DNA of 64,000 nucleotides, from assembly GCF_020442045.1 (NCBI RefSeq), contig NZ_JAGRLA010000002.1, forward strand, positions 1-64,000. Reading direction: 5' to 3'. Below, piece by piece: positions 1,917-21,668 of the stretch (position 1 is the first letter of the stretch; each line of letters starts with the position of its first letter). The notes beneath the pieces were generated by a model that searched no databases, was not told the DNA's origin, and was given only the letters and a program-made list of their open reading frames with translations. The DNA comes from Bauldia sp. (GTDB lineage Bacteria > Pseudomonadota > Alphaproteobacteria > Rhizobiales > Kaistiaceae). The translations under genes were made by a program, and so were the position numbers.

Positions 1917-2807
1917 ATGAGAGAGATCGACGCTGGCCTCGCGGCGCATATCGCCGGAGGGGTGACGACGCTCGCCCGCTGCTGGCGGATCGCGCGGGGT
2001 GATGGCGTCGTGCTCGGCTTCACCGACCACGACCGGACGCTGAGCTTCGAGGGAACCGACTACGAGCCGGCGACCGGCTTCGACGCCGGCGAGGACGTGT
2101 CGGCGACCGGCTTCGCGGTCGGCGGGCAGGAGGTCTCCGGGGCGCTGTCGTCGGACCGGCTCGATGCGGCCGATCTCGCCGCGGGCCGCTACGACAATGC
2201 CGAGGTGCGTGCCTACCTGGTCAACTGGACGACGCCGACCGAGCGCCATCTGCTGAGGGTCGGCCATCTCGGCGAGGTGGTGCGCGAGGACGGCGCCTTC
2301 CGCGCCGAGGTGCGCGGACTGGCGGCACGGCTCGACGAGGCGAAGGGGCGCGCCTTCCGGCCGAGCTGCGACGCAGACCTCGGCGACGCGCGCTGCGGGG
2401 TCGACCTCGACGACCCGGATTTCACCGCGACCGGTGCCGTGACTGCGGTCCATGACCGGCGCCGCTTCGTGGCGAGCGGCCTGGCGAGCTACGCGGCGGG
2501 CTGGTTCGACCGCGGCTATTTCGTCTGGACCGACGGCGACAATGCCGGCGCCGCGTTCGAGGTACGGAGCCACCGGCTGGTCGGCGGCACGGTCGAGGTC
2601 GAGCTGTGGCAGCCGGCCTTCCACGACATCGCGCCGGGCGACGGCTTCACCATCTCCGCCGGCTGCGACAAGCGCTTCGAGACCTGCCGGAAGAAATTCG
2701 ACAACACGGTCAACTTCCGCGGCTTCCCGCACATGCCGGGCAACGACTTCACGCTCGCCTACGCCAAGCAGGGCGACAAGAACAACGGCAAGGCGGTGGT
2801 CGAGTGA
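1917..2807 (+). CDS. DUF2163 GTA baseplate hub protein (TIGR02218)
   Basis: A 296-aa protein of the TIGR02218/DUF2163 family, RcGTA g13, a baseplate hub component. Family-like segments are the N-terminal 'HIAGGVTTLARCWRI' and 'GFTDHDRTLSFEGTDY', a cysteine pair region around residues 150-162 (FRPSCDADLGDARCGVDL), and the C-terminal CDKRFETCRKKFDNTVNFRG. The cysteines resemble those that bind a metal cluster in RcGTA hub proteins, which is inference here. Its TGA stop shares a base with the ATG of the peptidase gene. Confidence 0.92.
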   Translation: MREIDAGLAAHIAGGVTTLARCWRIARGDGVVLGFTDHDRTLSFEGTDYEPATGFDAGEDVSATGFAVGGQEVSGALSSDRLDAADLAAGRYDNAEVRAYLVNWTTPTERHLLRVGHLGEVVREDGAFRAEVRGLAARLDEAKGRAFRPSCDADLGDARCGVDLDDPDFTATGAVTAVHDRRRFVASGLASYAAGWFDRGYFVWTDGDNAGAAFEVRSHRLVGGTVEVELWQPAFHDIAPGDGFTISAGCDKRFETCRKKFDNTVNFRGFPHMPGNDFTLAYAKQGDKNNGKAVVE

Positions 2808-3406
2808 TGATCACCCGTGCGGCGATCGTTGCTGAGGCGATGAGCTGGATTGGCACGCCATACCGCCACCAGGCGTCGCTGAAGGGCGTCGGCTGCGATT
2901 GCCTCGGGCTGGTGCGCGGCGTGTGGCGGGCGCTCTACGGTGACGAGCCGGAGCCGCTCGTCGCCTATACGCCCGACTGGGCCGAGGCGCGGGGCGCGGA
3001 GACGCTCGCAACGGCGGCCGAACGGCATCTCGTGCCGGTCGCGCTGGCGGAGGCACGGGAGGGCGACGTCGTGCTGCTCCGCTGGCGCGCCAACCTGCCG
3101 GCCAAGCACGCGGCAATCCTGATCTCGGCGGAGCGCATGGTCCATGCCCACCAGGGCGCGGCCGTGACGCCCGCTTCCTTTACGCCGTGGTGGCGGCGCC
3201 GGGCTGCCTTTGCGTTTTCCTTTCCGGGAGTCGCCGACAAGAGGCGAGGAGCGGCGGAGCCGCGACCGGGAATAGTGAAGAGGCGAGGAGCGGCGGAGCC
3301 GCGACCGGGAATAGTGAAGAGGCGAGGAGCGGCGGAGCCGCGACCGGGAATAGTGAAGAGGCGGAAAGTGGCGGAGCCGCGACAGGGAATGCAAGAGAAG
3401 ACCTGA
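2807..3406 (+). CDS. GTA NlpC/P60 peptidase (TIGR02219) with repeat-derived C-terminal extension
   Basis: A 199-aa protein. Residues 1-145 form the NlpC/P60-type cell wall peptidase of GTAs (RcGTA g14), probably used to cross peptidoglycan. The catalytic cysteine lies in GVGCDCLGLVRG (about residue 29) and the histidine in KHAAILI. The ATG at 2807 overlaps the previous stop, fixing the start. From about residue 146 the protein is unlike the family: three perfect and one decayed copy of a 13-residue arginine/proline-rich unit (RRGAAEPRPGIVK), encoded by 39-bp DNA repeats. The fold should end before the repeats. The gene ends by sharing an A with the next ATG. Confidence 0.9.
   Translation: MITRAAIVAEAMSWIGTPYRHQASLKGVGCDCLGLVRGVWRALYGDEPEPLVAYTPDWAEARGAETLATAAERHLVPVALAEAREGDVVLLRWRANLPAKHAAILISAERMVHAHQGAAVTPASFTPWWRRRAAFAFSFPGVADKRRGAAEPRPGIVKRRGAAEPRPGIVKRRGAAEPRPGIVKRRKVAEPRQGMQEKT
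3241..3391 (+). repeat. 39-bp tandem repeat inside the GTA peptidase gene
   Basis: Three identical 39-bp units at 3241-3279, 3280-3318 and 3319-3357, followed by a diverged fourth at 3358 to about 3391. Each begins gaggcgaggagcggcggagc and ends gggaatagtgaa, and holds the short palindrome gcggcggagccgc. Thirty-nine bases is exactly 13 codons, so copy number can change without a frameshift. Confidence 0.95.
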
Positions 3407-6400
3407 TGGCGACACTTGTCCTTTCGTCCGCCGGGGCGGCGATCGGCGGCCTGTTCGGCCCGGTCGGCGCGGCACTCGGGCGCGCGGCCGGCGCGCTTGC
3501 CGGTTATGCCATCGACCAGTCGCTGTTCGGCGAGAAGCGGACGGTCGAGCAAGGCCGGCTCGGCGATCTCGACATCCAGACTTCCCGCGAGGGCGCGCCG
3601 ATGCCGCGCGTCTACGGACGGGTGCGGATCGCCGGCCAGGTCATCTGGGCGACCCGCTTCGAGGAGGAGGTGTCGAAGGAGACGAGCGGCGGCAAGGGCG
3701 GATCGAGCGGCTCGACGGTCAAGACCTACAGCTATTTCGCCAATTTCGCCGTCGGGCTCTGTGAGGGCAGGATCGACCGGATCGGCCGGGTCTGGGCCGA
3801 CGGCCGGCCCTTCAACATGGTCGCCGCCGACTTCCGTATCCACTTCGGCAACGAGCATCAGGACCCCGACAGCCTGATCGAGGCGAAGCAGGGGAGCGGC
3901 GAGGCGCCGGCCTATCGCGGCACCGCCTATATCGTCTTCGAGCGGCTGCCGCTGGAGGAATTCGGCAACCGCATCCCGCTCTTCTCCTTCGAGGTGATCC
4001 GCTCGGTCGGCGCGCTGGAGCGCGACATCCGCGCCGTGACGATGATCCCCGGCGCGACCGAATTCGGCTATTCGCCGACCTCGGTGAAGGAGATCAAGTC
4101 GCCGGGGCACAAGGTGCCCCTGACCCGCCACACCGACCGGCGGTCCACCGACTGGGATGCCTCGGTCGCCGACCTGACCGCGCTCTGCCCGAACCTCGAA
4201 CGGGTGGGGCTGGTCGCGGCCTGGTTCGGCGACGACCTGCGCGCCAACCACTGCACGATCAAGCCGGGCGTGACCGACCGCGACATCGAGACGACGGTTG
4301 CCTGGGGGACAGCCGGCCTCGGCCGGGCGACGGCAAGGCTGGTCAGCCAGTACAAGGGCAAGCCCGCCTATGGCGGGACGCCGAGCGACGCGACGGTGGT
4401 CGCCGCTCTCCGCGATCTCGACGATCGCGGCCTCAAGGTGACCTTCATCCCCTTTATCATGATGGATATCGCCGAGGATAACGGCCTGACCGACCCCTAT
4501 GGCGGGGCGGAGCAGGGCGCCTATCCGTGGCGGGGGATGATCACCGGCTCGCGGGCGCCGGGGATATCCGGATCGCCCGACAAGACGAGCACAGCGGCCG
4601 ACCAGGTCGACGCCTTGGTCGGGACGGCGGCACCGGGCGACTTCTCCCTCTCCGGCGACACGGTGGTCTATTCCGGCCCGGACGAATGGTCCTTCCGCCG
4701 GCTGATCCTGCATTACGCATGGCTCTGCAAGGCGGCGGGCGGCGTCGACGCCTTCCTGCTCGGCTCGGAGCTGCGCGGCCTGACGACGCTGCGCTCCGCC
4801 ACCTCGACCTATCCCTTCGTCGATGCGCTGGTCGATCTCGCGGCCGATGTCCGTTCGGTGCTGGGACCGTCGGTGAAGCTCTCCTACGGCGCCGACTGGA
4901 CCGAATATTTCGGCCACCAGCCCGACGACGGCTCGGGCGACGTCCATTTCCACCTCGATCCGCTGTGGGCGAGCGACGACATCGACGCGGTGGCGATCGA
5001 CAACTACATGCCGCTCGCCGACTGGCGCGACGGCAGCGACCACCTCGACGCTGGGAGCTGGGACGATGGCCGGAGCGCCGGCTATTTCCGCGCCAATGTC
5101 GCGGCCGGCGAGGGCTTCGACTGGTATTATGCCAGCGACGCGGATCGCGACGCCCAGACCCGGACGGCGATCACCGACGGCGCCTATGGCAAGCCCTGGG
5201 TGTTCCGCTACAAGGACCTGAAGAGCTGGTGGTCGAACCAGCATCATGACCGGCCGGGCGGGGTCGAAGCGGCGGGCGCGACCGACTGGGTGCCGGAGGC
5301 GAAGCCCTTCTGGTTCACCGAGCTCGGCTGCCCGGCGGTCGACAAGGGCGCCAACCAGCCGAACGTCTTTCCCGACAAGAAATCCTCGGCGAGCGCCATA
5401 CCCTGGTATTCGACGGGCGCGCGGGACGACCTGGTCCAGCGCCGCTTCCTCGAGGCGGCACTCTCCTTCTTCGACCCGACGCATGACGATTACGCGGCCG
5501 GCAGCAACCCGGTCTCGGCGGTCTATGGCGACCGGATGGTCGATCCCGACATGACCCACCTCTGGACCTGGGACGCGCGGCCCTATCCGGCCTTCCCCTA
5601 CCTCACCGACGTCTGGTCAGACGGGGCGAACTGGACGACCGGGCACTGGCTGACCGGGCGATTGGGCGCGGCGTCGGCCTCGGACCTCGTCGCCAGGATC
5701 CTCGAGGATTATGCGATCGACGACGTCTCCGTGGGAGAGCTCGACGGCACGGTCGACGGCTACCTGATCGACAGCATCGTCTCGGCCCGCGACGCGCTGG
5801 AGCCGCTGGCGTCGCTCCTGATGTTCGAGGCGCTGGAATCGGGCGACGTGATCCGCTTCGTCCGTCGCGGCCGAAAGGCATCCGCCTCGCTCGGCGAGGA
5901 CGACCTGGCGGAGGAGGGCGGCCGGCCCCTGGTCACCGCGCGGCGGGCGCAGGAAACCGAATTGCCGGCCGAGATCGCCATCGGATTCGACGACCCGCTC
6001 GCCGATTTCAGGGCGACGGCGGTCAGTGCCCGGCGGCTCGTGACCGGCAGCGGCCGGACACAGACGAGGGCGACCGGCGCGGCAATGGGCCATGCGGTGG
6101 CGACCGGGCTCGCCGAGGCGGCGCTGCAGGATCTGTGGGCCGGACGCGAGGTCTATTCACTGTCGCTGACGGCCAGGGCGCTGTCGCTCGAACCGGCCGA
6201 CATCTGCGACCTGACCGCCGACGGGGTGAGCCGGACGCTGCTCGTCACCCGCATAGAGGACGGGGTTTCGCGGCGGATCGAGGCACGGAGCATCGAGCCC
6301 GCGCTGCTTTCGCCGGCGCCGGCGGAGCCGAGGATTCTCCCGCCCGAGACGACATCGCTCGCCTCTCCCCCCGAAGTGCTCCTTCTCGACCTGCCGCTGC

Positions 6401-7305
6401 TGACCGGTGACGAGCCGGGATACGCGCCGCGCGTCGCCGCCTTCGCGGAACCGTGGACCGGGCCGATGGCGATCGCCATCGGAACACCCGACACCGGCTA
6501 TGTCGCGCGCCAGGCGATTGAACGGAGCGCGGTAATGGGCGCGTTGACGGCATCGCTCGCCGCCGGACCGCTCGGCCGCTGGGACCGTGCGAATGCCATC
6601 GAGGTCGGCCTCTATGGCGGGACGCTCGCGTCGCTACCCGAGACGGGGGTGCTGAACGGCGGCAACGTCGTGGCGATCGGAGACGCGGCATCGGGCTACG
6701 AGGTGGTGCAGTTCCAGACCGCGACGATGCTCGACGCCACGACCTGGCGGCTCGAAGGATTGCTGCGCGGACAGGGCGGGACAGGCGACATGGCGGACGC
6801 AGGTCACGCCATCGGCGCCCGTTTCGTGCTGCTCGACGGGGCGATCGAGCCGCTTGATCTCAGCGAGGCGGAATCGGGCCTCGGCCTCACCGCGCGCTGC
6901 GGACCGGCCGGGACCGTCTACGATCCGGATATCTTCGTCGACATCGTCGTGCCGTCGGCGCGGCGCGGGCTCGCCTGCCTGCCGCCGGTCCATGTCGCGG
7001 CACGCCGCGATACGGTGAGCGGCGACGTCGCCATCTCGTGGATCCGCCAGACCCGGATCGGCGGCGACGCCTGGGAGCCCTTCGCGGTGCCGCTCGGCGA
7101 GGCGAGCGAGGCCTACCAGGTCGAAATCCTCGACGACGGAGAGCCGGTCCGCACGATCGACGTTACCACGGCATCGCTGACCTACACGACGGCCGAACAG
7201 ATCGCCGACTTCGGCACGCCACCATCCAGCCTCGCCATTCGCGTCCGTCAGGTGAGCCCGACCGAGGGACCGGGCCTCGCCGCCGAAAGGTTGCTCCATG
7301 TCTGA
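3406..7305 (+). CDS. GTA TIM-barrel-like megatron / tail hub protein (RcGTA g15)
   Basis: A 1299-aa protein, the largest gene of the cluster. The N-terminus has a glycine-rich segment (GGLFGPVGAALGRAAGALAG), then a hub region (RVYGRVRIAGQVIWATRF). A glycoside hydrolase TIM-barrel-like domain (GTA_TIM) spans roughly residues 400-740, with the family's FWFTELGCPAVDKG segment, followed by a phage-tail_3-like region and a C-terminal Rcc01698-like region. It forms the central baseplate megatron of the particle. The ATG at 3406 is chosen because it overlaps the previous stop (ATGA); in-frame codons upstream lie within the peptidase gene. The next gene overlaps it by 8 bases. Confidence 0.93.
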   Translation: MATLVLSSAGAAIGGLFGPVGAALGRAAGALAGYAIDQSLFGEKRTVEQGRLGDLDIQTSREGAPMPRVYGRVRIAGQVIWATRFEEEVSKETSGGKGGSSGSTVKTYSYFANFAVGLCEGRIDRIGRVWADGRPFNMVAADFRIHFGNEHQDPDSLIEAKQGSGEAPAYRGTAYIVFERLPLEEFGNRIPLFSFEVIRSVGALERDIRAVTMIPGATEFGYSPTSVKEIKSPGHKVPLTRHTDRRSTDWDASVADLTALCPNLERVGLVAAWFGDDLRANHCTIKPGVTDRDIETTVAWGTAGLGRATARLVSQYKGKPAYGGTPSDATVVAALRDLDDRGLKVTFIPFIMMDIAEDNGLTDPYGGAEQGAYPWRGMITGSRAPGISGSPDKTSTAADQVDALVGTAAPGDFSLSGDTVVYSGPDEWSFRRLILHYAWLCKAAGGVDAFLLGSELRGLTTLRSATSTYPFVDALVDLAADVRSVLGPSVKLSYGADWTEYFGHQPDDGSGDVHFHLDPLWASDDIDAVAIDNYMPLADWRDGSDHLDAGSWDDGRSAGYFRANVAAGEGFDWYYASDADRDAQTRTAITDGAYGKPWVFRYKDLKSWWSNQHHDRPGGVEAAGATDWVPEAKPFWFTELGCPAVDKGANQPNVFPDKKSSASAIPWYSTGARDDLVQRRFLEAALSFFDPTHDDYAAGSNPVSAVYGDRMVDPDMTHLWTWDARPYPAFPYLTDVWSDGANWTTGHWLTGRLGAASASDLVARILEDYAIDDVSVGELDGTVDGYLIDSIVSARDALEPLASLLMFEALESGDVIRFVRRGRKASASLGEDDLAEEGGRPLVTARRAQETELPAEIAIGFDDPLADFRATAVSARRLVTGSGRTQTRATGAAMGHAVATGLAEAALQDLWAGREVYSLSLTARALSLEPADICDLTADGVSRTLLVTRIEDGVSRRIEARSIEPALLSPAPAEPRILPPETTSLASPPEVLLLDLPLLTGDEPGYAPRVAAFAEPWTGPMAIAIGTPDTGYVARQAIERSAVMGALTASLAAGPLGRWDRANAIEVGLYGGTLASLPETGVLNGGNVVAIGDAASGYEVVQFQTATMLDATTWRLEGLLRGQGGTGDMADAGHAIGARFVLLDGAIEPLDLSEAESGLGLTARCGPAGTVYDPDIFVDIVVPSARRGLACLPPVHVAARRDTVSGDVAISWIRQTRIGGDAWEPFAVPLGEASEAYQVEILDDGEPVRTIDVTTASLTYTTAEQIADFGTPPSSLAIRVRQVSPTEGPGLAAERLLHV

Positions 7306-8689
7306 TCCGCTCGCCACGAACCTGCTCGGTCTGCCCTATCTGGCGGCCGCCCAGGCGCAGAAGCACGTCACCCATAACGAAGCCCTGCGCATGCTCGATG
7401 CGCTGGTGCAGGTCGGCGTCGCCGACACGACGGTGACCGACCCGCCGGGGTCGCCGGCCGAAGGCGACCGCTACATCGTGGCGGCCACCGCGACCGGCGA
7501 CTGGGCCGGTCACGAGAACGATATCGCCGCCTATGCCGACGGCGTCTGGGTCTTCTTCACGCCGCTGGCCGGGTGGCTCGCCTTCGATGCCGCAAGCGGC
7601 GCGCTCCTGCTCTTCGACGGCGGCGATTGGCTGCCGGTCGGCGACTATCTCGGGGCGGTGACGCAATTCGGGATCAACGCGACCGCCGACGCGACAAACC
7701 GGCTGGCGGTCGGCTCGAATGCCGTGCTCTTCGCCGCGATCGAGGCGGGCGACGGCGGCAGCGGCGACGTCCGCTTCGTCGTCAACAAGGAGACCGACGG
7801 GGACACGGCGTCGCTGCTCTTCCAGAGCGGCTATTCGGGCCGGGCGGAGGTCGGCCTTGCCGGTGACACCGACTTCGTCTTCAAGGTCTCGGCGAATGGC
7901 ACGGACTGGGTCGAGGCGATCCGCATCGACAAGGATACCGGCCTGCCGGCGATCCTCTACGACAACACCGGGTCGGGCCTCACCGCCGCCACGGTGCAGG
8001 CGGCGATCGACGAGGTGGCGGCGGCCGGTGGCGGCGGCGCGGTCGACAGCGTCTTCGGCCGGACCGGGGCGGTGGTGGCGGCGGCGAGCGATTATGACGC
8101 CAGCCAGGTCGACAACGACAGCGGCGTCTCCGGATCGACGGTGGCGGATGCCCTCGACGCATTGGCGGCGGCCATCCCGGCCGACTCCGACGACATCGTC
8201 AATGCCAGCGGCGTCTCCGGGACGAACGTCTCCGACGCCCTCGACGCCATCGCGGCAGCCATCCCGGCCGATGCCGGCGATCTCGCCTCTTCGGCGAAAT
8301 ACCAGATCGACGCGACGACGGTGCAGGGCGCCATCGACCAGCTGGCATCGATCGTCCGGACGGTCGATTCCGTCCCCATTGCCGACGACGCGGTCGGCTC
8401 GATCTTCACCCTCGACAGTGGTCGCGGCGGGCTGCTGATGATCGGCACGGCGATGAATGCGCCGTCGATGTCGTTGTTCTATATCGACCAGCCCGGCACC
8501 ACCGAAATCGTTACGGTCCATGTCTCCGGCAACGGGGTCAACAACGGCTCTGCCTCGCCGTCGCCGGGAAGCGGCACCGACGGCAAGATCAATTTCTACA
8601 ACGACGGCGGGACGATCAAGGTCAGCAATCGACTTGGCGCCACGATCAATATCGTGGCGACCTTCATCGAGCTGGGGACCCCGTTCTAG
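7298..8689 (+). CDS. DUF2793 protein, GTA head-spike or fibre candidate (GhsA-like)
   Basis: A 463-aa protein. Residues 1-115 are a DUF2793 domain (LGLPYLAAAQAQKHVTHNEA, then a GDRYIV and WLAF pattern). The same domain occurs in the GhsA head spike of RcGTA, which binds the capsule of recipient cells. The middle part holds two copies of a 29-residue repeat (SGVSGS.VADALDALAAAIPAD type) and two 'TVQxAIDxx' motifs, as in trimeric fibre shafts. The C-terminus (about 370-463) looks like a beta-rich tip and I do not recognise it. It overlaps the megatron gene by 8 bases. Spike versus tail fibre cannot be settled from sequence alone. Confidence 0.75.
   Translation: MSDPLATNLLGLPYLAAAQAQKHVTHNEALRMLDALVQVGVADTTVTDPPGSPAEGDRYIVAATATGDWAGHENDIAAYADGVWVFFTPLAGWLAFDAASGALLLFDGGDWLPVGDYLGAVTQFGINATADATNRLAVGSNAVLFAAIEAGDGGSGDVRFVVNKETDGDTASLLFQSGYSGRAEVGLAGDTDFVFKVSANGTDWVEAIRIDKDTGLPAILYDNTGSGLTAATVQAAIDEVAAAGGGGAVDSVFGRTGAVVAAASDYDASQVDNDSGVSGSTVADALDALAAAIPADSDDIVNASGVSGTNVSDALDAIAAAIPADAGDLASSAKYQIDATTVQGAIDQLASIVRTVDSVPIADDAVGSIFTLDSGRGGLLMIGTAMNAPSMSLFYIDQPGTTEIVTVHVSGNGVNNGSASPSPGSGTDGKINFYNDGGTIKVSNRLGATINIVATFIELGTPF
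8112..8285 (+). repeat. two 87-bp units encoding a 29-aa fibre repeat
   Basis: The segment gcggcgtctccgg recurs at 8121-8133 and 8208-8220, a period of 87 bp or 29 codons. Each unit encodes SGVSG-x-x-V-x-DALDA-x-AAAIPAD. The copies have diverged at the DNA level but keep the protein pattern. Confidence 0.8.
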
Positions 8690-8706
8690 AGGGAGATGAA
8701 ACGGCA

Positions 8707-9126
8707 ATGGCCATCTTGACCATCGACGACTTCCAGCCGACGCAGATCCGCGGCATCTACCGGCATCCGCTGCTGGGCAGGGTGCGGATATCCATCCCCT
8801 TCGAGGACCTCGCCGCCAGGCTCGACGCGGAGGACTTCAGGGAGATCGAGCCGGGGATCTTCACGCATGACGGAATGCCCGGCCTCAGGTTGTATGCGCG
8901 TCCCGGCCAGACGGTGGCGGAGGTCTTCGCCGAATTCGATCCCGCCGTCCGGGCACGGGGCGAGCCGGCGGCGGTCGCGGACACGTCTGCCGTCGACCGC
9001 CGGATGCTGCTCGACGCCACGATCGCCAGGGCGGCGGCCGAGATCGCGGCCGACGACACCGCCGACGCCGACCTCAAGGCGGCGGCGACACGCGAGCTGA
9101 CGCGGCTGGCGGCCGCCGTCCGCTAA
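8707..9126 (+). CDS. unknown 139-aa protein between spike and endolysin
   Basis: I do not recognise this protein. Residues 1-80 are compact and mixed (MAILTIDDFQPTQIRGIYRH...GIFTHDGMPGLRLYARPGQT). Residues 85-139 are alanine-rich and probably helical. There is no signal peptide or membrane segment. It lies 17 bases after the DUF2793 gene, with GAGGGAGATGAAA upstream of the ATG, so it is probably co-transcribed with the GTA genes. It could be a spike accessory or chaperone, but only position suggests this. About 210 bp without a supported gene follow. Confidence 0.6.
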   Translation: MAILTIDDFQPTQIRGIYRHPLLGRVRISIPFEDLAARLDAEDFREIEPGIFTHDGMPGLRLYARPGQTVAEVFAEFDPAVRARGEPAAVADTSAVDRRMLLDATIARAAAEIAADDTADADLKAAATRELTRLAAAVR

Positions 9127-9339
9127 CCGCGAAGCGACCAACGGTCGGCTGTCGCCGGCGTCCCGGTCCTGCTCGTCCATGCGAGCAAGCTCGGCCCGCG
9201 GGAGCCGTTGCGATCGGCTCGACGAGGCTGCGATCGAGGGCGGCGATCCGGCCGCGGCGAAGAACCGGTCGCGCCGCCGCCGCCGATGAGGTCCGGCCGT
9301 CACCCTCCCTGTATCGACCTGACATGAAAGAGAAATCCC

Positions 9340-10203
9340 ATGCGCGTGAGCGACAGGGGGCTGGCATTCATCGCCGGCCACGAAGGCGTCGTGACCCGGG
9401 CCTATCGGGACGTCGCCGGCGTCTGGACGATCGGCGTCGGCCATACCGCGGCCGCCGGCGCGCCGACGCCCCGGGCCGGAATGACGATCAGCCGGGGCGA
9501 GGCCTTGGCGATCCTTTCGCGCGACCTGCCGCGCTACGAGCGCCGGGTCGCGGCGGCTCTCGGCAACGTCCGTCAGCATGTCTTCGACGGCGCGACCTCC
9601 TTCGACTTCAACACCGGGGCCGTCCATCGCGCCTCCTGGGTCGCGGCTTTCCGGGCCGGTGACATGGCGGCGGCGCGGCTCGGACTGATGAAGTGGGTCA
9701 AGGCCGGCGGCCGCACCGTGAAGGGACTGGTCAGGCGCCGCGAGGCCGAGGGCCGGCTGATCTTTGCCGGAGACTATGGCGATCACGGCGGAGCGACAGG
9801 CTTGCCGGACGCGGCCGCCGACGTCAGAGCCTGGCAGAGCCAGCTTGCCACGATCGGATTCGATCCCGGCCCGCTCGACGGGATCGCGGGACCACGAACA
9901 AGGGCGGCGGTGCTCGCCTATCAACGCGCCCACGACGACCTTGTCGTCGACGGCATCGTCGGACCCGCGACACGGGCGAGCCTCGCCCGCGACATCGCCG
10001 CGCGAGAAAGGATGCGGCAGGTCGGCGGCGGCGCCATTGCCTCGGTGATCCTCGGCGGGACCGCGGGGGCCGCTGCCGAGGGCGATCCGCTCGCCTGGGC
10101 GATGCTTGCCGCCATGGCCGTGCTGGTCCTCGCCGGCGGCATTTTCGCCTGGCGCTATCGCGGCGAATTGCGCCGCTTCTTCCGCACCATCAAAGGAGCA
10201 TAG
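9340..10203 (+). CDS. T4-type endolysin with peptidoglycan-binding domain and C-terminal membrane anchor
   Basis: A 287-aa protein. Residues 1-145 are a GH24 muramidase: Glu15, Asp24 and Thr30 have the same 9- and 6-residue spacing as the catalytic triad of T4 lysozyme (E11, D20, T26). Residues about 160-215 form a PG_binding_1 domain (LDGIAGPRTRAAVLAYQRAH). Residues about 245-270 are a hydrophobic membrane segment with a basic tail (FAWRYRGELRRFFRTIKGA). It would cut the murein of the producing cell to release GTA particles. The C-terminal anchor is not part of a standard phage lysozyme. A small membrane protein follows after two bases. Confidence 0.88.
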   Translation: MRVSDRGLAFIAGHEGVVTRAYRDVAGVWTIGVGHTAAAGAPTPRAGMTISRGEALAILSRDLPRYERRVAAALGNVRQHVFDGATSFDFNTGAVHRASWVAAFRAGDMAAARLGLMKWVKAGGRTVKGLVRRREAEGRLIFAGDYGDHGGATGLPDAAADVRAWQSQLATIGFDPGPLDGIAGPRTRAAVLAYQRAHDDLVVDGIVGPATRASLARDIAARERMRQVGGGAIASVILGGTAGAAAEGDPLAWAMLAAMAVLVLAGGIFAWRYRGELRRFFRTIKGA

Positions 10204-10205
10204 AG

Positions 10206-10415
10206 ATGCTGTCCCGACTTTCCCGCGCGCTTCGTCCGGTCAAGGGCTGGAAGACCATGGGCTTCTCCGTTGCGATCGCGGTCGCGGGCGCCTTGCAAGC
10301 CACAGATTGGACGACCATCGTCGCGCCGTCGCAGGTCGGACCGACGCTGCTGGCGATCGGCGTGGTCGTCGCCGTGCTCCGGGCGGTGACCGACGGACCG
10401 GTCGGCAGGAAGTGA
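10206..10415 (+). CDS. small holin-like membrane protein (69 aa)
   Basis: It starts with MLSRLSRALRPVKGWK and has two hydrophobic stretches: about 17-28 (MGFSVAIAVAGA) and 43-60 (VGPTLLAIGVVVAVLRAV). The ends are basic. The start lies two bases after the endolysin stop with a GGAGCATAGAG leader. Size, topology and position directly after an endolysin suggest a holin or holin-like partner. No sequence family is recognised with certainty, and a short phage-type membrane protein of other function is possible. Confidence 0.6.
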   Translation: MLSRLSRALRPVKGWKTMGFSVAIAVAGALQATDWTTIVAPSQVGPTLLAIGVVVAVLRAVTDGPVGRK

Positions 10416-10448
10416 GCCTGCTGCGGGAATGAACCGCGGGCGTCACCC

Positions 10449-10466
10449 GTATTCAGCCGGTATTCA
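10449..10466 (+). promoter_or_regulatory. PhoP-box-like direct repeat ahead of the feuN/feuP/feuQ-like genes
   Basis: GTATTCA occurs at 10449-10455 and again at 10460-10466, an 11-bp period or one helical turn. OmpR/PhoP-family regulators bind tandem half-sites with this spacing. It lies 26 bp before the ATG of the PepSY-like gene and may be an autoregulatory FeuP site. The binding is inferred. Confidence 0.4.
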
Positions 10467-10491
10467 TAAACGGGGCGCTATCAGGAACGGC

Positions 10492-10812
10492 ATGTTCGGA
10501 AAAACCCTGCCAGCCTTGCTCTTCGGTCTGGCCCTGCTGCTGGCGGGGGCGGCGGTTCCGGTCGATCTCGCCGAGGCGGCGAATTGCATGTCGGACCGCG
10601 ACGCCCGCTCCGCCGTGCAATCGGGCGACGCGGTGTCGCTGTCGAAAATGATCAAGCGCATCCGTTCAGCCACCGGCGGCGAGATCGTGCCGCCGCCGAA
10701 GCTCTGCAAGCAGGGCAAGCGGCTGGTCTATGTCGTCAACGTCCTCGCGCCCGACGGCAAGGTGACGAAACTGACGGTCGATGCGGCAAGCGGTAATATC
10801 CTGGGCAAGTAG
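10492..10812 (+). CDS. secreted PepSY-like protein, FeuN candidate
   Basis: A 106-aa protein with a signal peptide (MFGKTLPALLFGLALLLAGA, cleavage near AEA-AN at about residue 31), then a short PepSY-like domain (CMSDRDARSAVQSGDAVSL, ending KLTVDAASGNILGK) with two cysteines that could pair. I chose the ATG at 10492, which has AGGAA upstream and begins directly with the signal peptide; an in-frame ATG at 10429 would put 21 polar residues before it. It lies 26 bp before the response regulator. In Sinorhizobium the small periplasmic protein FeuN sits next to feuP and restrains FeuQ. That identity is inferred from location and domain type. Confidence 0.65.
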   Translation: MFGKTLPALLFGLALLLAGAAVPVDLAEAANCMSDRDARSAVQSGDAVSLSKMIKRIRSATGGEIVPPPKLCKQGKRLVYVVNVLAPDGKVTKLTVDAASGNILGK

Positions 10813-10838: not shown

Positions 10839-11510
10839 ATGCGGGTCCTGATCGTTGAGGATGATGCCGATCTCAACCGGCAGCTCGCAACGGCGATGAA
10901 GGAAGCAGGCTACGCGGTCGATACCGCGACGGACGGCGAGGAAGGCCATTTCCTCGGCGATACCGAGCCGTATGACGCGGTGGTGCTCGATATCGGCCTG
11001 CCGCAGCTCGACGGCATCAGCGTCCTCGAGCAATGGCGGCGTGCCGGCCGGACCATGCCGGTGCTGCTGCTCACCGCCCGCGACCGCTGGAGCGACAAGG
11101 TGCAGGGAATCGATGCCGGCGCCGACGACTATGTCGCCAAGCCCTTCCATATCGAGGAGGTGCTCGCCCGGATTCGCGCCCTGGTACGGCGGGCGGCGGG
11201 CCATGCCTCGAACGAGATCGAATGCGGGCCGGTGCGGCTCGATGCCAAGGCCGGCCGGGTGACGGTCGACGGCAATCCGGTCAAGCTCACCTCCCACGAA
11301 TACAAGGTGCTCGAATACCTGATGCTCCACCGCGAGCGGGTGGTCTCGCGCACCGAGCTGATCGAGCATCTCTACGACCAGGATTTCGACCGCGACTCCA
11401 ACACCATCGAGGTGTTCGTCGGCCGCCTGCGCAAGAAGGTCTCCGCCGACCTGATCGAGACCGTGCGCGGCCTCGGCTACCGGCTCGTCGCGCCGGGTGA
11501 TGCGGCGTAA
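10839..11510 (+). CDS. feuP: OmpR/PhoP-family response regulator FeuP
   Basis: A 223-aa protein: receiver domain (residues 1-115) with acidic pair Asp8/Asp9, phospho-acceptor Asp51 (VVLDIGLP), Thr79 and Lys101, then a winged-helix DNA-binding domain (about 125-220; SHEYKVLEYLM and a C-terminal VRGLGYRL). The sensor gene overlaps its end. In Rhizobium, feuPQ lie beside cycHJKL, as here, and in Sinorhizobium they control cyclic glucan export in response to osmolarity. Those roles are transferred by family and context. GGAGGGCGGCG provides a good ribosome binding site. Confidence 0.82.
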   Translation: MRVLIVEDDADLNRQLATAMKEAGYAVDTATDGEEGHFLGDTEPYDAVVLDIGLPQLDGISVLEQWRRAGRTMPVLLLTARDRWSDKVQGIDAGADDYVAKPFHIEEVLARIRALVRRAAGHASNEIECGPVRLDAKAGRVTVDGNPVKLTSHEYKVLEYLMLHRERVVSRTELIEHLYDQDFDRDSNTIEVFVGRLRKKVSADLIETVRGLGYRLVAPGDAA

Positions 11511-12861
11511 TTCGCTTTCCTTCCGCCTGATCGCCGCGGCGGCGCTGTGGAGCGTCGTCGCGCTCGTCGCCGCCGGGCTGATCCTCACCAACCTCTATCG
11601 CGAGACGGTCGAACGCGCCTTCGACGAGCGGCTCAGCGTCTATCTCCGGACGCTGGTCGGCAACCTCGCCGAGCAGGACCCGGCCAATCTCTCCGACCCC
11701 GGAAATCTCGGCGAGCCGCGCTTCGAGCTGACCTATTCCGGCTGGTACTGGCAGGTGCGGGAGGCGGCGGAGGGGCCGGTGGTCCTCGCCTCGAAATCCC
11801 TCTTCACCGACACGCTGGATTTCGCCGAGGCGAGCGGCCAGACCGACTTCAACGGCATGGTGAGTGGCGCGCTGGTCGGACCCGACAACCAGTCGCTCCG
11901 CGCGCTGACGTTGACCGTGACGTTCGGCGACCACCGCTACGATGTCCTGGTCGCCGGTGACGCCGGCGAGACGGCGGATGAGATCCGCTCCTTCCGCCGC
12001 AGCGTGATCCTGACCCTGAGCGTCTTCGGCGTCGGGCTGGTGCTGGCGACCATGGCCCAGACCCGCTGGGGGCTGAGACCACTCGACAATGTCCGCCGCG
12101 GCCTGGCGGCGTTGCGGAGCGGCAAGGAGGCGCGGTTCGAGGGACCATTCCCGGCCGAAATCGAACCGCTTGCCAAGGAGTTGAACGCACTTCTTGAATC
12201 AAACCGGCAAATCGTCGAACGGGCCAGAACGCAGGTAGGCAACCTCGCCCACGCGCTGAAGACGCCGCTCAGCGTCATCACCAACGAGGCGCGGGCGGGC
12301 TCCGGCCCCCTTGCCGGGAAGGTCGCCGAGCAGGCCGAGATCATGCGCATGCAGGTCAACCACTATCTCGACCGCGCCCAGATCGCGGCGCGCTCCAAGG
12401 TGATCGGCGCGGTGACCGAGGTGACGCCGGCCGTGGCGAGCCTGGCGCGCGCCATGCGCCGCATCCACGAGGACCGTGACCTGGACCTGACGGTCGATTC
12501 GCCGGGCAATGCGCGGTTTGCCGGCGAGAAACAGGATTTCGAGGAGATCGTCGGCAACCTGGTCGACAATGCCTGCAAGTGGGCGAAGTCGACGGTGACG
12601 GTGGCGATCGACTATCAGTCGCCGGGCGCCGGCTCGCCGGGCAAGCTCGTAATCCTGATCGACGACGACGGGCCCGGGCTCACCCCGGCGCAGCGCGAAG
12701 AGGTGACGCGGCGCGGCCGCCGCCTCGACGAATCGAAGCCGGGCTCCGGCCTCGGCCTGTCGATCGTCACCGAGCTGGTCCAGCTCTACCAGGGGTCGTT
12801 CACCCTCGACGGCTCGCCGCTCGGCGGCCTGCGCGTCAAGGTCGACCTGCCGGCGGCGTGA
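11500..12861 (+). CDS. feuQ: sensor histidine kinase FeuQ (PhoQ-like)
   Basis: A 453-aa membrane kinase counted from the ATG at 11500; a GTG directly before it at 11497 is an equal alternative. Membrane segments lie at about 10-32 and 168-190, enclosing a periplasmic domain of about 135 residues. The phosphorylated His is at about 251 in NLAHALKTPLSV, the PhoQ-type variant with alanine before leucine. The ATP-binding domain has NLVDNACKWA, DDDGPGL and GSGLGLSIV. It overlaps feuP by 11 bases, so the two are translationally coupled. It probably senses an envelope or osmotic signal and may be restrained by the secreted PepSY-like protein encoded upstream. Confidence 0.82.
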   Translation: MRRNSLSFRLIAAAALWSVVALVAAGLILTNLYRETVERAFDERLSVYLRTLVGNLAEQDPANLSDPGNLGEPRFELTYSGWYWQVREAAEGPVVLASKSLFTDTLDFAEASGQTDFNGMVSGALVGPDNQSLRALTLTVTFGDHRYDVLVAGDAGETADEIRSFRRSVILTLSVFGVGLVLATMAQTRWGLRPLDNVRRGLAALRSGKEARFEGPFPAEIEPLAKELNALLESNRQIVERARTQVGNLAHALKTPLSVITNEARAGSGPLAGKVAEQAEIMRMQVNHYLDRAQIAARSKVIGAVTEVTPAVASLARAMRRIHEDRDLDLTVDSPGNARFAGEKQDFEEIVGNLVDNACKWAKSTVTVAIDYQSPGAGSPGKLVILIDDDGPGLTPAQREEVTRRGRRLDESKPGSGLGLSIVTELVQLYQGSFTLDGSPLGGLRVKVDLPAA

Positions 12862-12950: not shown

Positions 12951-13367
12951 ATGGCGCGCGTTCCGGCGCTGGCAGTGGCGGTTTCAGGTGTTCTGGCCCT
13001 TGCCGGGTGTAGCCAGACGACGACCGGTGCCCCGGAGGCGCTGGCGGTGACCGGCGATTCGATCGCCGGGACCAGCCCGGCCGAGGCGGCGGCGACCGCC
13101 GCCATCGGCATTCCTCTCGACAAATCGGCGGCACGCAAGGCGCATGAGGCGGAAATCCGCGCCCTCGAGCATGGCCGCACGGGCGTGCCGGTCGCCTGGC
13201 GGAGCGGCAAGTTCCGCGGCGAGGTGGTTCCCGGCGCGATGTATCAGGTCAACGCCTATACCTGCCGCGATTACACACAGACGGTCTATGTCAGTGGCCA
13301 GCCACCCCAGGCCACCCGCCAGAGCGCCTGCCGCCAGCCGGATGGAAGCTGGAAGGCGGTCAGCTAA
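12951..13367 (+). CDS. small lipoprotein, 17-kDa surface antigen/RT0821-like
   Basis: A 138-aa protein with a lipoprotein signal peptide: MARVPALAVAVSGVLALAGC, lipobox LAGC with Cys20. The C-terminal half (about 85-138; WRSGKFRGEVVPG, YTCRDYTQTVYV, then ACRQPDGSWK) resembles the RT0821/Lpp0805 surface protein domain at the end of alphaproteobacterial 17-kDa antigen-like lipoproteins. I chose the ATG at 12951 because GAGGCGAGGGG lies just upstream; a TTG 33 bases earlier would place extra residues before the signal peptide. It is monocistronic between feuQ and ccmI. Function is not known beyond envelope localisation. Confidence 0.72.
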   Translation: MARVPALAVAVSGVLALAGCSQTTTGAPEALAVTGDSIAGTSPAEAAATAAIGIPLDKSAARKAHEAEIRALEHGRTGVPVAWRSGKFRGEVVPGAMYQVNAYTCRDYTQTVYVSGQPPQATRQSACRQPDGSWKAVS

Positions 13368-17997: not shown

Positions 17998-19470
17998 ATG
18001 AACGACCAGTCGAATATCAAGAGAATCCGTAACCGCGCCCTGCTCGGCACAGCGGCCGCCGTCCTCCTCGGTGGCGCGATCGCCGGCGAGGCGGTCCTGC
18101 TGCCGAAGACGCCGGCCTATGCCGACGCCGTCCATGTCGAAGGCGTGCAACCCGTCAGCTTCGCCGATGTGGTGGAGAAGGTTCGCCCGGCGGTGGTCAG
18201 CGTCCGCGTCAAGGGCCCGGCTCGCGAGATGGCCGGCCTCGATCAGTTCGAGTTTCCCGACGGCTCGCCGATGGAGAAATTCTTCAAGCAGTTCCGCGAC
18301 AATCCGCAGAAGCAGTTCCGCCAGCGGCAGCCCTCGACCAGCCTTGGCTCCGGCTTCATCATCTCCGAGGACGGCTACATCGTGACCAACGACCACGTGG
18401 TCGACGATGGCGAGTCCGAGACGGTGATCCTCGACGACGGCACCGAGTTCGTCGCCGACCTGGTCGGCGTCGACCAGAAGACCGACCTCGCGCTGCTCAA
18501 GATCAAGAATCCGGACCGCAAGTTCACCTATGTGAAGTTCTCCGGAGAAAAGGCCCGCATCGGCGACTGGGTGGTCGCGGTCGGCAACCCGTTCGGCCTT
18601 GGCGGCACCGTCACCGCCGGCATCGTCTCGGCCGAGGGCCGCAACATCGGCTCCGGTCCGTATGACGACTTCATCCAGATCGACGCGGCCGTCAACCGCG
18701 GCAATTCCGGCGGTCCGGCCTTCAACCTCAAGGGTGAGGTGATCGGCATCAACACCGCGATCTTCTCGCCGTCGGGCGGCAATGTCGGCATCGCCTTCGC
18801 GATCCCGGCGAGCACGGCGGAGAATATCATCAACGACCTGATGGACGACGGACAGGTGGTCCGCGGCTGGCTCGGCGTCGAGATCCAGAATATCGACCGC
18901 GACATTGCCGACGGCCTGCAGCTCGCCGACGCCAAGGGTTCGCTCGTGACCCAGGCGCAGGAAGGCAGCCCCGCCGCCGCGGCCGGCCTCAGGTCCGGCG
19001 ACGCGATCCTCGCGGTCAACGGCCAGCCGGTCGACGATCCGCGCGCGCTCGCCACCAAGATCGCCAGCATCGCGCCCGGCACCACGGTGACGGTTTCGGT
19101 CTGGCGTTCGGGCAAGGCCGAGGACGTCAACGTCAAGCTCGGCACCCTTCCGGGCAACGATCAGGTGGCTTCGCTGGAGCCCGGCAAGGGCGGCGCCGAA
19201 GCCTCGCCGCTGACCGACTTCGGTCTGGTCGTCGGCCAGGGCGACGAAGGCGTGACCATCGAGGATGTCGATCCCAACGGCCAGGCGGCCGAGCGCGGCC
19301 TGCAGCCCGGCGACGTCATCCTGTCGGTCGGAAAGGCCGAGGTGACCAACCCGGCAGACGTCGAGAAGCTGGTCAAGGACGCCGAGAAAGACGGCATGAA
19401 GGCCGTTCTGTTGCGGGTCAAGTCGGGCGATCAGACGCGCTTCGTCGCGCTGAGCTTCGTCCGCACCTGA
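17998..19470 (+). CDS. degP: periplasmic serine endoprotease DegP/HtrA (MucD type)
   Basis: A 490-aa Do-family protease that degrades misfolded envelope proteins. It has an N-terminal signal/anchor segment (about 13-40, ending near AYA-DAVH), a trypsin-like domain with His133 (TNDHVVDD), Asp163 (KTDLALLKI) and Ser237 (GNSGGPAFN), and two PDZ domains (about 285-375 and 400-485). A Q-linker-like stretch lies before the catalytic domain (FKQFRDNPQKQFRQRQPS). A strong terminator follows. Upstream, 259 bp may hold its own promoter, although I could not place one with confidence. Confidence 0.95.
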   Translation: MNDQSNIKRIRNRALLGTAAAVLLGGAIAGEAVLLPKTPAYADAVHVEGVQPVSFADVVEKVRPAVVSVRVKGPAREMAGLDQFEFPDGSPMEKFFKQFRDNPQKQFRQRQPSTSLGSGFIISEDGYIVTNDHVVDDGESETVILDDGTEFVADLVGVDQKTDLALLKIKNPDRKFTYVKFSGEKARIGDWVVAVGNPFGLGGTVTAGIVSAEGRNIGSGPYDDFIQIDAAVNRGNSGGPAFNLKGEVIGINTAIFSPSGGNVGIAFAIPASTAENIINDLMDDGQVVRGWLGVEIQNIDRDIADGLQLADAKGSLVTQAQEGSPAAAAGLRSGDAILAVNGQPVDDPRALATKIASIAPGTTVTVSVWRSGKAEDVNVKLGTLPGNDQVASLEPGKGGAEASPLTDFGLVVGQGDEGVTIEDVDPNGQAAERGLQPGDVILSVGKAEVTNPADVEKLVKDAEKDGMKAVLLRVKSGDQTRFVALSFVRT

Positions 19471-19529
19471 CCCCAGGCAGCTGGACGGAGGCGCTCGATC
19501 GTCGCCCCGACGCTTCCGCTTCAGTGGAC

Positions 19530-19564
19530 GGCAGGCCGGTTCGCCGGCCTGCCGCTCTTTATTT
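19530..19564 (+). terminator. rho-independent terminator of degP
   Basis: A perfect 10-bp GC-rich stem, ggcaggccgg at 19530-19539 and ccggcctgcc at 19544-19553, encloses the stable loop ttcg and is followed by the T-rich tract gctctttattt. Confidence 0.88.
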
Positions 19565-19612
19565 GGCCATGCCGATCTGGCAAAGCAGCATCGGACAAGG
19601 CGAGTTGATCCG

Positions 19613-20293
19613 ATGCGGATTCTGATCATCGAGGACGACCGGGAGGCGGCCGCGTATCTCTGCAAGGCGCTGCGGGAGGCGGGCCATGTCGCCGACCACG
19701 CCGCCGATGGTGAAACCGGTACGACCATGGCGCTCGAAGGCGGATATGACGTCCTGGTCGTCGACCGGATGCTGCCCAAGCGCGACGGCCTGGCGATCAT
19801 CGAGGAGATGCGGGAACGCGGCGACGAGACGCCGGCGCTGATCCTCTCCGCGCTCGGCCAGGTCGACGACCGGGTGACCGGGCTGCGCTCGGGCGGCGAT
19901 GACTACCTCGCCAAGCCCTATGCCTTTTCGGAGCTGCTCGCCAGGGTCGAGGCGCTGGCGCGCCGCCGCCGGCCGGGTGAGGCGGAGACCGTCTACCGGG
20001 TCGGCGATCTCGAGCTCGACCGCCTCGGCCACACGGTCTCGCGGGCCGGGCAGAATGTGCCGCTGCAGCCCCGCGAATTCAGGCTGCTGGAATATCTGAT
20101 GAAGAATGCCGGACAGGTGGTGACCCGCACCATGCTGCTGGAGAATGTCTGGGACTATCACTTCGATCCCCAGACCAACGTCATCGACGTGCATATCTCG
20201 CGGCTGCGCGGCAAGATCGACAAGGGCTTCGACGCGCCGCTCCTGCACACGGTGCGTGGCGCGGGATACATGATCCGTGACAGCGCTCGGTAA
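19613..20293 (+). CDS. OmpR-family response regulator
   Basis: A 226-aa protein with a receiver domain (acidic Asp8/Asp9, phospho-acceptor Asp51 in VVDRMLPKRDG, Lys in DDYLAKPYAF) and a winged-helix domain (PREFRLLEYLMKNAGQVVTR, about 125-225). It starts about 50 bp after the degP terminator, so any promoter must lie in this short gap. The kinase gene overlaps its 3' end by 17 bases. Linkage to degP suggests an envelope stress role, which is inference. Confidence 0.9.
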   Translation: MRILIIEDDREAAAYLCKALREAGHVADHAADGETGTTMALEGGYDVLVVDRMLPKRDGLAIIEEMRERGDETPALILSALGQVDDRVTGLRSGGDDYLAKPYAFSELLARVEALARRRRPGEAETVYRVGDLELDRLGHTVSRAGQNVPLQPREFRLLEYLMKNAGQVVTRTMLLENVWDYHFDPQTNVIDVHISRLRGKIDKGFDAPLLHTVRGAGYMIRDSAR

Positions 20294-21668
20294 GGTCGTC
20301 CGCACCACCGCCTTCAAGCTTTCCGCCATCTACATCGCGGTGTTCTCGATCTTCGCGGTGTCGCTGATCCTCTACATTTCCTACAGCGTCAACGTGCTGC
20401 TCAACGACCAGCTGCGCGCGACGATCGCTGCCGAGATCCGCGGCCTCGCCGAGCAGGCGCGCGTCGGCGGCATCGCGGCGATCTTCCAGACCATCGAGGA
20501 ACGCAGCCACCAGCCGGGCGCCAGCCTCTACCTGATCACCGACGTCAACGGCCGCATCCTGACCGGCAATATCAGCCAGGTCCCCGCCGACATCTTCGAG
20601 CGCTCCGGCATCGGGCCGATCACGGTTTCCTACGAGCGCAACGTCGGCGAGGGCTCCCGCCACGTCGCCATGGTGCAGGTGCTGCGGCTGCCGGGCGGGT
20701 TCTGGATGCTGGTCGGCCGCGATATCGCCGAGCGCGAGCAGTTCCGGGACATCATCGGCCAGGCGCTGGGCTGGGCGGTGGCGCTGATGATCGTGCTGGC
20801 CATGGTGAGCTGGTTCTTCGTCAGCCGCCGCGTGCTGAAGCGGATCGACTCGGTCAGCGCCACCAGCCGCCAGATCGTCGCCGGCGACCTCTCGGGACGA
20901 CTTGAGGTGACCGGAACCGGGGACGAATTCGACCGCCTGGCCGAGAGCCTGAACGACATGCTCGAGCGCATCGAGCATCTCCTCTACGGACTCAAGGACG
21001 TTTCGGACAACATCGCCCATGACCTGAAGACGCCGCTGACCCGGCTGCGCAACAGGGTCGAAGGGGCGCTTGCCGGTCCCGCCAGCGTCGAGGCCTATCG
21101 CGACGCGCTGGAATCGACGATCGAGGAGTCCGACCAGCTGATCAAGACCTTCAACGCGCTGTTGATGATCGCCCGGATCGAGGCCGGGTCGCCGGACGGC
21201 GCGATCACCGAGGTCGACGCCGGCGCCATCGTCCGCGACGTCGCCGAGCTCTACGAGCCCGTTGCGGAAGAGCAGGGCGCCGAGCTGACCGTCACCTCGG
21301 CGGAGGCGGTGACGATCAAGGCAAGTCGCGAACTGCTCGGCCAGGCGCTCGCCAATCTCGTCGACAACGCGATCAAATACGCGCCGAGCGATACCGGCCG
21401 GCCGCTGAAGATCGAGGTGTCGAGCAGCCGCGAGGGCGGCATGCTGGCGCTCAGGGTCGCCGACAATGGTGTCGGGGTGCCGGAAGGCGACCGGGAACGT
21501 ATCCTCCAGCGTTTCGTCAGGCTCGAGGAGAGCCGGTCGCAATCCGGCAGCGGACTGGGCCTCAGCCTTGTCGCAGCGGTCGCCAGGCTGCACCATGGTA
21601 CGATCGAACTCAGCGACAACCAGCCGGGTCTGATCGTTACGATCCGCCTGCCGACCGAAACCGGGTGA
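20277..21668 (+). CDS. sensor histidine kinase, partner of the preceding regulator
   Basis: A 463-aa kinase starting at a GTG that overlaps the regulator gene. It has membrane helices at about 16-38 and 160-185, a periplasmic sensor of about 120 residues, a HAMP region (about 186-238), the phosphorylated His248 in NIAHDLKTPLTRLR, and an ATP-binding domain (NLVDNAIKYA, VADNGVGVP, GSGLGLSLVAA). The HDLKTPLTRLR box is typical of the family that includes QseC and CpxA-like sensors. The stimulus is unknown. glnE starts one base after its stop. Confidence 0.9.
   Translation: MTALGKVVRTTAFKLSAIYIAVFSIFAVSLILYISYSVNVLLNDQLRATIAAEIRGLAEQARVGGIAAIFQTIEERSHQPGASLYLITDVNGRILTGNISQVPADIFERSGIGPITVSYERNVGEGSRHVAMVQVLRLPGGFWMLVGRDIAEREQFRDIIGQALGWAVALMIVLAMVSWFFVSRRVLKRIDSVSATSRQIVAGDLSGRLEVTGTGDEFDRLAESLNDMLERIEHLLYGLKDVSDNIAHDLKTPLTRLRNRVEGALAGPASVEAYRDALESTIEESDQLIKTFNALLMIARIEAGSPDGAITEVDAGAIVRDVAELYEPVAEEQGAELTVTSAEAVTIKASRELLGQALANLVDNAIKYAPSDTGRPLKIEVSSSREGGMLALRVADNGVGVPEGDRERILQRFVRLEESRSQSGSGLGLSLVAAVARLHHGTIELSDNQPGLIVTIRLPTETG

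Follow-up and report, generated by a model that had tools for sequence, protein, structure and literature searches.

In enterobacteria, a comparable self-limiting arrangement is MgrB-PhoP-PhoQ, in which PhoP turns on MgrB, an inhibitor of PhoQ that is a small membrane protein and not a PepSY protein. In Sinorhizobium meliloti, FeuN is described as binding FeuQ and as a negative regulator of this kinase (PMC12486126), and in V. cholerae the PepSY-domain protein DbfQ, a small secreted protein encoded just upstream of the DbfR-DbfS regulator-kinase pair, is reported to bind DbfS and to shift it towards phosphatase activity (PMC12714742). A transcription-start study of S. meliloti found a direct repeat, TTCA-N7-TTCA (Motif 3), upstream of 12 genes, five of them FeuP-dependent, and upstream of feuN too, and suggested it as a candidate FeuP site (PMC3616915). 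The literature searched contained no paper naming both FeuN and PepSY, although the original FeuN paper lay outside its scope and may note the link, and the word FeuN is missing from the DbfQ paper in the text available (PMC12714742). The feedback loop is thus known from S. meliloti, a nitrogen-fixing symbiont; what is added here is its breadth, a link to DbfQ-type brakes and different likely targets.

The window, a stretch of 64,000 nucleotides from Bauldia sp. (NZ_JAGRLA010000002.1, positions 1 to 64,000), carries feuN (10492-10812), feuP (10839-11510) and feuQ (11497-12861) adjacent and in this order on the forward strand, with feuP beginning 26 bases on from the feuN stop at 10812 and overlapping feuQ by 14 bases. 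According to Pfam, the last two encode an OmpR/PhoB-type response regulator and a sensor histidine kinase, which are 77% (76.7%) and 44% (44.1%) identical to S. meliloti FeuP and FeuQ, respectively. The best NCBIfam score of the catalytic half of FeuQ is to PhoQ, at 172 of 497 bits, far below the cut-off. The reference locus, identified in a tblastn search of plasmid records with FeuP as query, lies on a 3.7-Mb replicon of S. meliloti Ak57 that is filed as a plasmid and whose annotation names feuN, feuP and feuQ. Among the genes listed, the order common to both is feuN, feuP, feuQ, a small gene, ccmI, ccmE, ccmF and a second regulator-kinase pair, so that the cyc/ccm genes and this pair lie downstream in each species. 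The members of the second pair are 76.1% and 48.9% identical between the two loci, whereas window FeuP is 40.4% identical to the second S. meliloti regulator vs 76.7% to FeuP, and on such sequence comparison it is the FeuP orthologue and not a paralogue. Since gene order, FeuP identity and the box before feuN discussed below all agree, the locus is the counterpart of Sinorhizobium feuNPQ, as had been proposed from the DNA sequence. A Brucella study gives BOV_0603-0604 as feuPQ and BOV_0611-0612 as a further regulator-kinase pair, which is consistent with the same layout. The small gene behind feuQ (12951-13367, forward strand) encodes a lipoprotein-like product with a lipobox recognized by eye, is 46% (46.3%) identical to the S. 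meliloti gene in the same place and has a weak, below cut-off match to the 17-kDa antigen; kept in this position in S. meliloti, it is possibly a member of the feu operon or a further part of the system.

The original prediction had a small secreted PepSY-like protein encoded directly ahead of feuP, and this is borne out by Pfam, in which the 106-aa form of FeuN matches PepSY (PF03413) at 24.2 bits for a cut-off of 24, with 24.9 bits in a six-frame search and 23.6 bits, just under the cut-off, for a 127-aa form; a signal-peptide-like N-terminus was read by eye. The locus therefore matches the description of DbfQRS, namely a single-domain small PepSY protein beside a regulator and a kinase, with secretion judged by eye and FeuPQ likened to DbfRS by module layout. 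A single-sequence AlphaFold2 model of window FeuN has a block-mean pLDDT of 80-89 from residue 31 onwards, after the signal peptide. The model's best five VIA rows are CD1622, YpmB (two entries), YpeB and UipA (Z 5.8-7.9), all of which we take to be PepSY proteins, and matches further down, among them monellin and amine oxidase, score lower in Z, while a Foldseek search of the model gave a best E of 0.033. UipA, whose fold is similar to the FeuN model with a Z of 5.8, presumably adjoins a two-component system in Microbacterium. It is named a PepSY protein binding uranium and iron in the title of a reference cited in the DbfQ paper (PMC12714742). A profile of 74 long FeuNs (defined below) matches a PepSY-M4 propeptide chain (E 7.7e-7) and YpmB (0.08), and 41 of these 74 proteins match PepSY individually (E of at most 0.01). 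By family, fold and profile, the second judged on a predicted model, window FeuN would be placed with PepSY domains. Unlike DbfQ, long-type FeuNs have two cysteines that are invariant in the 74 aligned sequences and correspond to Cys32 and Cys72 of the window protein. The paralogous PepSY protein of the Bauldia genome has no cysteine; it belongs to a second PepSY-regulator-kinase module, on another contig, whose regulator is 54% identical to FeuP and in which no FeuP box is seen.

How this protein relates to the FeuN first described is less straightforward. S. meliloti FeuN is a short form of 83 aa without any Pfam match, whereas window FeuN is a long form of 106 aa with PepSY at cut-off. The short FeuNs (19 proteins including that of S. 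meliloti) likewise have two invariant cysteines, PepSY matches were found in 0/19 of them, and they apparently lack two elements of the long PepSY form, namely additional residues following the first cysteine and a C-terminal strand. By BLAST, the S. meliloti and window proteins are not alignable, and S. meliloti FeuN scores no better than decoys (E 7.8; best decoy 0.016) against a profile built from 75 long FeuNs. The only method joining both forms is profile-profile comparison, which gives 92% (P 6.5e-7) for short vs long FeuNs. In the hhalign controls, a reversed profile gave 0.2% and, with gap columns removed, 0/100 column shuffles reached the real score; when gappy columns were kept, one of 20 shuffles gave 99.6%, which is taken as an artefact of these columns.

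Two GTATTCA half-sites, 11 bp apart from start to start as originally claimed, are present at 10449-10466 on the forward strand, with a TTCA-N7-TTCA core at 10452-10466. This candidate FeuP box is Motif 3 of S. meliloti, as that motif is described in the transcription-start study (PMC3616915). The exact 18-bp pattern GTATTCA-N4-GTATTCA has one copy in the window and one in the 4.19-Mb draft genome. Within the window, however, one observed vs 0.61 expected occurrences with up to three mismatches, or one vs 0.15 for RTTCA-N6-RTTCA, are not decisive, and the significance of the repeat therefore rests on relatives. There, the repeat itself proved to be conserved, but the general form is RTTCA-N6-RTTCA and not GTATTCA-N4-GTATTCA, which as a general motif is too narrow; an exact scan of genome contigs with the latter returned at least 118 stretches across unrelated phyla and was uninformative.

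Relatives were selected by FeuN or FeuP similarity and never by the motif. Of the 297 genomes of the order, 181 have FeuN-like matches (E 0.001) and 273 have FeuP matches (E 1e-70). A FeuN-anchored set comprised 30 + 60 loci and three named records, 93 in all, from which one locus was dropped when feuP was not found there. A FeuP-anchored set comprised 30 + 39 loci, 69 in all after a wrongly chosen region of 100 bases had been removed, whose FeuP matches were accepted by E-value only, so that some may be paralogues. With the seven genomes common to both sets counted once, and the three named records and a locus with 323 nt upstream only omitted, 142 genomes were available. TTCA-N7-TTCA stands ahead of feuN or feuP in 137 of them, and in at least one genome of 37 of the 38 families. 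Both cores are preceded by A or G in 136/142 genomes, one further genome having the core without A/G, and the five genomes in which the exact core is missing are spread over four families. In the same upstream regions of the 142 genomes, the reversed pattern occurs in none, the opposite strand has one, a gap of 6 is seen in 5 and a gap of 8 in 7. The FeuN-anchored set gives a similar picture: at 84 of its 92 feuP-like loci the encoded protein shares 60% identity or more with window FeuP, and the motif is present at all but one of them (83/84), with the 7-base gap found within 650 nt upstream in 82 loci and any other gap (0 to 24) in at most four, compared with 0/84 in a coding control and 0.19 per set of 84 in base shuffles. 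In the FeuP-anchored set, the motif was found at 64/69 loci, one of the five misses being an incomplete contig. By comparison, TTCA-N7-TTCA was found in 0/8 paralogous PepSY-regulator loci (regulator 48-56% identical to window FeuP), and no FeuP box was found in 900 nt upstream of the paralogous locus of the Bauldia genome. A lack of conservation had been named in advance as one finding that would count against the prediction; the box instead proves almost invariant in most of the relatives studied. The pairing of FeuN with the box is not universal, since in three genomes of one family the box lies 72 nt before feuP with no intervening ORF of at least 45 aa, perhaps representing a loop without FeuN, and a FeuN-like ORF was not read in several other loci. 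Nine sites show another arrangement, in which TGAA-like cores are followed by two TTCA cores at steps of ~11 bp, some of them ahead of genes that look by eye clpS-, hsp20- or acetyltransferase-like; a different regulator is likely there.

The surroundings of the box are conserved as well. When upstream regions are aligned on the motif, the conserved bases read C/T, A/G, TTCA, T/G and then A/G, TTCA, G/T, followed by TA 27-28 bases past the first T. This TA is found in 91 of the 137 genomes, with A at the second column in 114, and in the window it falls within the -10-like TATCAG at 10479-10484 (forward strand), at the conserved distance from the box. Such fixed spacing suggests that the box occupies the position of a -35 element, which would suit an activator of the OmpR/PhoB type. 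The first ATG of the feuN ORF, at 10429, precedes both the box and the -10, and 10492 was therefore adopted as the working start. The latter is at column 40 of the alignment, which coincides with the predicted transcript start. Across the relatives, in-frame ATGs are most frequent at columns 39 and 40, and one is found at columns 38-42 in 88 of 122 readable loci, a count that, like the FeuN alignments, omits loci with ORFs badly picked by the script. Because the start codon sits at the predicted transcript start in so many of these cases, feuN mRNA is probably leaderless. S. meliloti feuN differs from window feuN in this respect, its annotated ATG lying 68 nt after the start of the box and not at the predicted transcript start, and leaderless messages do exist in that species, with 171 such starts reported (PMC3616915).

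With a probability of about 0.8, we consider 10449-10812 to be the promoter and first gene of a self-limiting feuN-feuP-feuQ operon in which FeuN acts as a DbfQ-like PepSY sensor brake. Phosphorylated FeuP would bind the direct repeat with its 11-bp period and activate transcription of feuN, feuP and feuQ together; exported FeuN would then bind the periplasmic part of FeuQ and lower its kinase output, so that the pathway would limit itself. Both the binding of FeuP to the box and the restraint of FeuQ by FeuN in Bauldia are put forward by analogy with FeuN of S. meliloti and DbfQ of V. cholerae. The locus is best read as a feedback loop of ancestral origin: FeuP would increase FeuN, and FeuN would restrain FeuQ. 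The repeat invites comparison with another regulator, as the alphaproteobacterial LexA site is GTTC-N7-GTTC and has the same 11-bp period. Indeed, G precedes both TTCA cores in 30 of 83 box loci, which fit this SOS consensus too, but in 23 of the 83, including the window, both cores are preceded by A, which a GTTC box excludes, and a LexA box was rejected for the window site for this reason. The box moreover tracks FeuP orthologues, is missing from the paralogues examined, carries a fixed -10 spacing and precedes S. meliloti ndvA, the gene of a glucan transporter and a reported FeuP target, all of which makes LexA a highly improbable owner of the repeat.

The role of FeuN leaves somewhat more room for other views. 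Roles in metal binding and protease inhibition have been ascribed to PepSY domains (PMC12714742) and S. meliloti FeuN is very divergent, so the protein might have such a job and merely be co-transcribed with feuPQ. We regard this as unlikely: FeuN-like genes beside feuP recur in many of the families sampled, S. meliloti FeuN is stated to be a negative regulator of FeuQ (PMC12486126) and DbfQ is described as restraining its kinase in an analogous module (PMC12714742). Alternatively, FeuN could be a positive co-sensor that activates FeuQ by presenting a signal to it, so that feedback in this lineage would be positive; the extra stretch and C-terminal strand of the long form could make its effect different from that of short FeuNs. 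Yet DbfQ, which has the Pfam PepSY domain, is reported to push its kinase to phosphatase activity (PMC12714742), and a co-sensor appears less probable still than an unrelated PepSY function.

If FeuN is a brake on FeuQ, the question is which other genes the loop would control. A search for the motif upstream of ndvA-like genes had been suggested as a check, and no ndvA-like target was found in the Bauldia draft genome (98% complete, 196 contigs). The best score for ChvA/NdvA in this genome is 291 for a cut-off of 585 (the S. meliloti NdvA control scoring 1182), and neither PF10091 (ndvB-type) nor OpgG (MdoG) was found there, although the former was found in an S. meliloti control and the latter in an E. 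coli control. With no ndvA, ndvB-type or opgG gene, the known cyclic-glucan output seems to be missing in Bauldia, as judged from its gene content, unlike in S. meliloti, where ndvA has the box. In the Bauldia genome, RTTCA-N6-RTTCA occurs at 13 sites, against one for the reversed control. A stricter pattern, with the flanking bases and the -10 A, gives 59 sites in 15 genomes of the family vs two when reversed, seven of the 59 being in the Bauldia genome. For the 30 of these 59 sites with DNA for the downstream gene, the downstream genes were chosen by a script with a preference for signal-like N-termini, which partly builds in the label 'secreted'; by eye they were eight feuN, six BA14K-like, five SH3-like, two DUF6600-like and nine others. 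In Pfam, all six BA14K candidates were confirmed, one of them from the Bauldia genome, and OmpA was confirmed for another box-preceded gene of that genome. The cut-off was passed by one SH3-like protein and one DUF6600 protein, and of the remaining SH3-like proteins one was below it and three had no match, so this label rests on mutual resemblance. The simple pattern is found at 23 sites in S. meliloti and its control at seven, a weaker enrichment; of the 15 sites there with the -10 A whose surroundings were inspected, 10 lie within 350 nt ahead of a listed gene on the same strand, and the genes behind them include feuN, the glucan transporter gene (ndvA), an L,D-transpeptidase gene and two BA14K genes. 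The other FeuP targets in Bauldia are thus probably secreted envelope proteins (BA14K, OmpA-family and the weak-SH3 family) rather than cyclic-glucan export.

A more far-reaching scheme can be drawn from these comparisons, to which, taken as a whole, we would give slightly less than an even chance. FeuN would be the alphaproteobacterial branch of DbfQ-kind PepSY sensor brakes, worn to a half-domain in the Rhizobiaceae, the family of its first description; secreted envelope proteins (BA14K, SH3-like, OmpA-like and FeuN) would have been the original output of FeuP, with cyclic-glucan export added later in the rhizobial line; and box, -10 and start codon would be held at fixed spacing for a leaderless inhibitor message. 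A feedback loop studied in one symbiont appears in any case to be conserved widely in its order, and in genomes where ndvA is missing the box can serve as a DNA signature by which to trace the FeuP regulon. Joining FeuN to DbfQ would connect two separate lines of work on small periplasmic proteins that set the sensitivity of histidine kinases, and the predicted leaderless start of the inhibitor gene is a detail that can be tested directly.

Other features of the window may be recorded here. At 17998-21668, a gene that looks by eye to encode a DegP-like protease is followed by the regulator-kinase pair matching that behind ccm in S. meliloti. On the other side, phage-like genes (1917-10415) end directly ahead of feuN, including a 1372-aa ORF (3187-7305), genes for a DUF2793 protein and a phage lysozyme (9340-10203) and a 69-aa ORF; these probably mark where a gene transfer agent cluster ends. 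At its start (about 3187-3400), the 1372-aa ORF encodes about four copies of a tandem peptide repeat, EEARSGGAATGNS, which likely reflects tandemly repeated DNA lying ahead of the true start.
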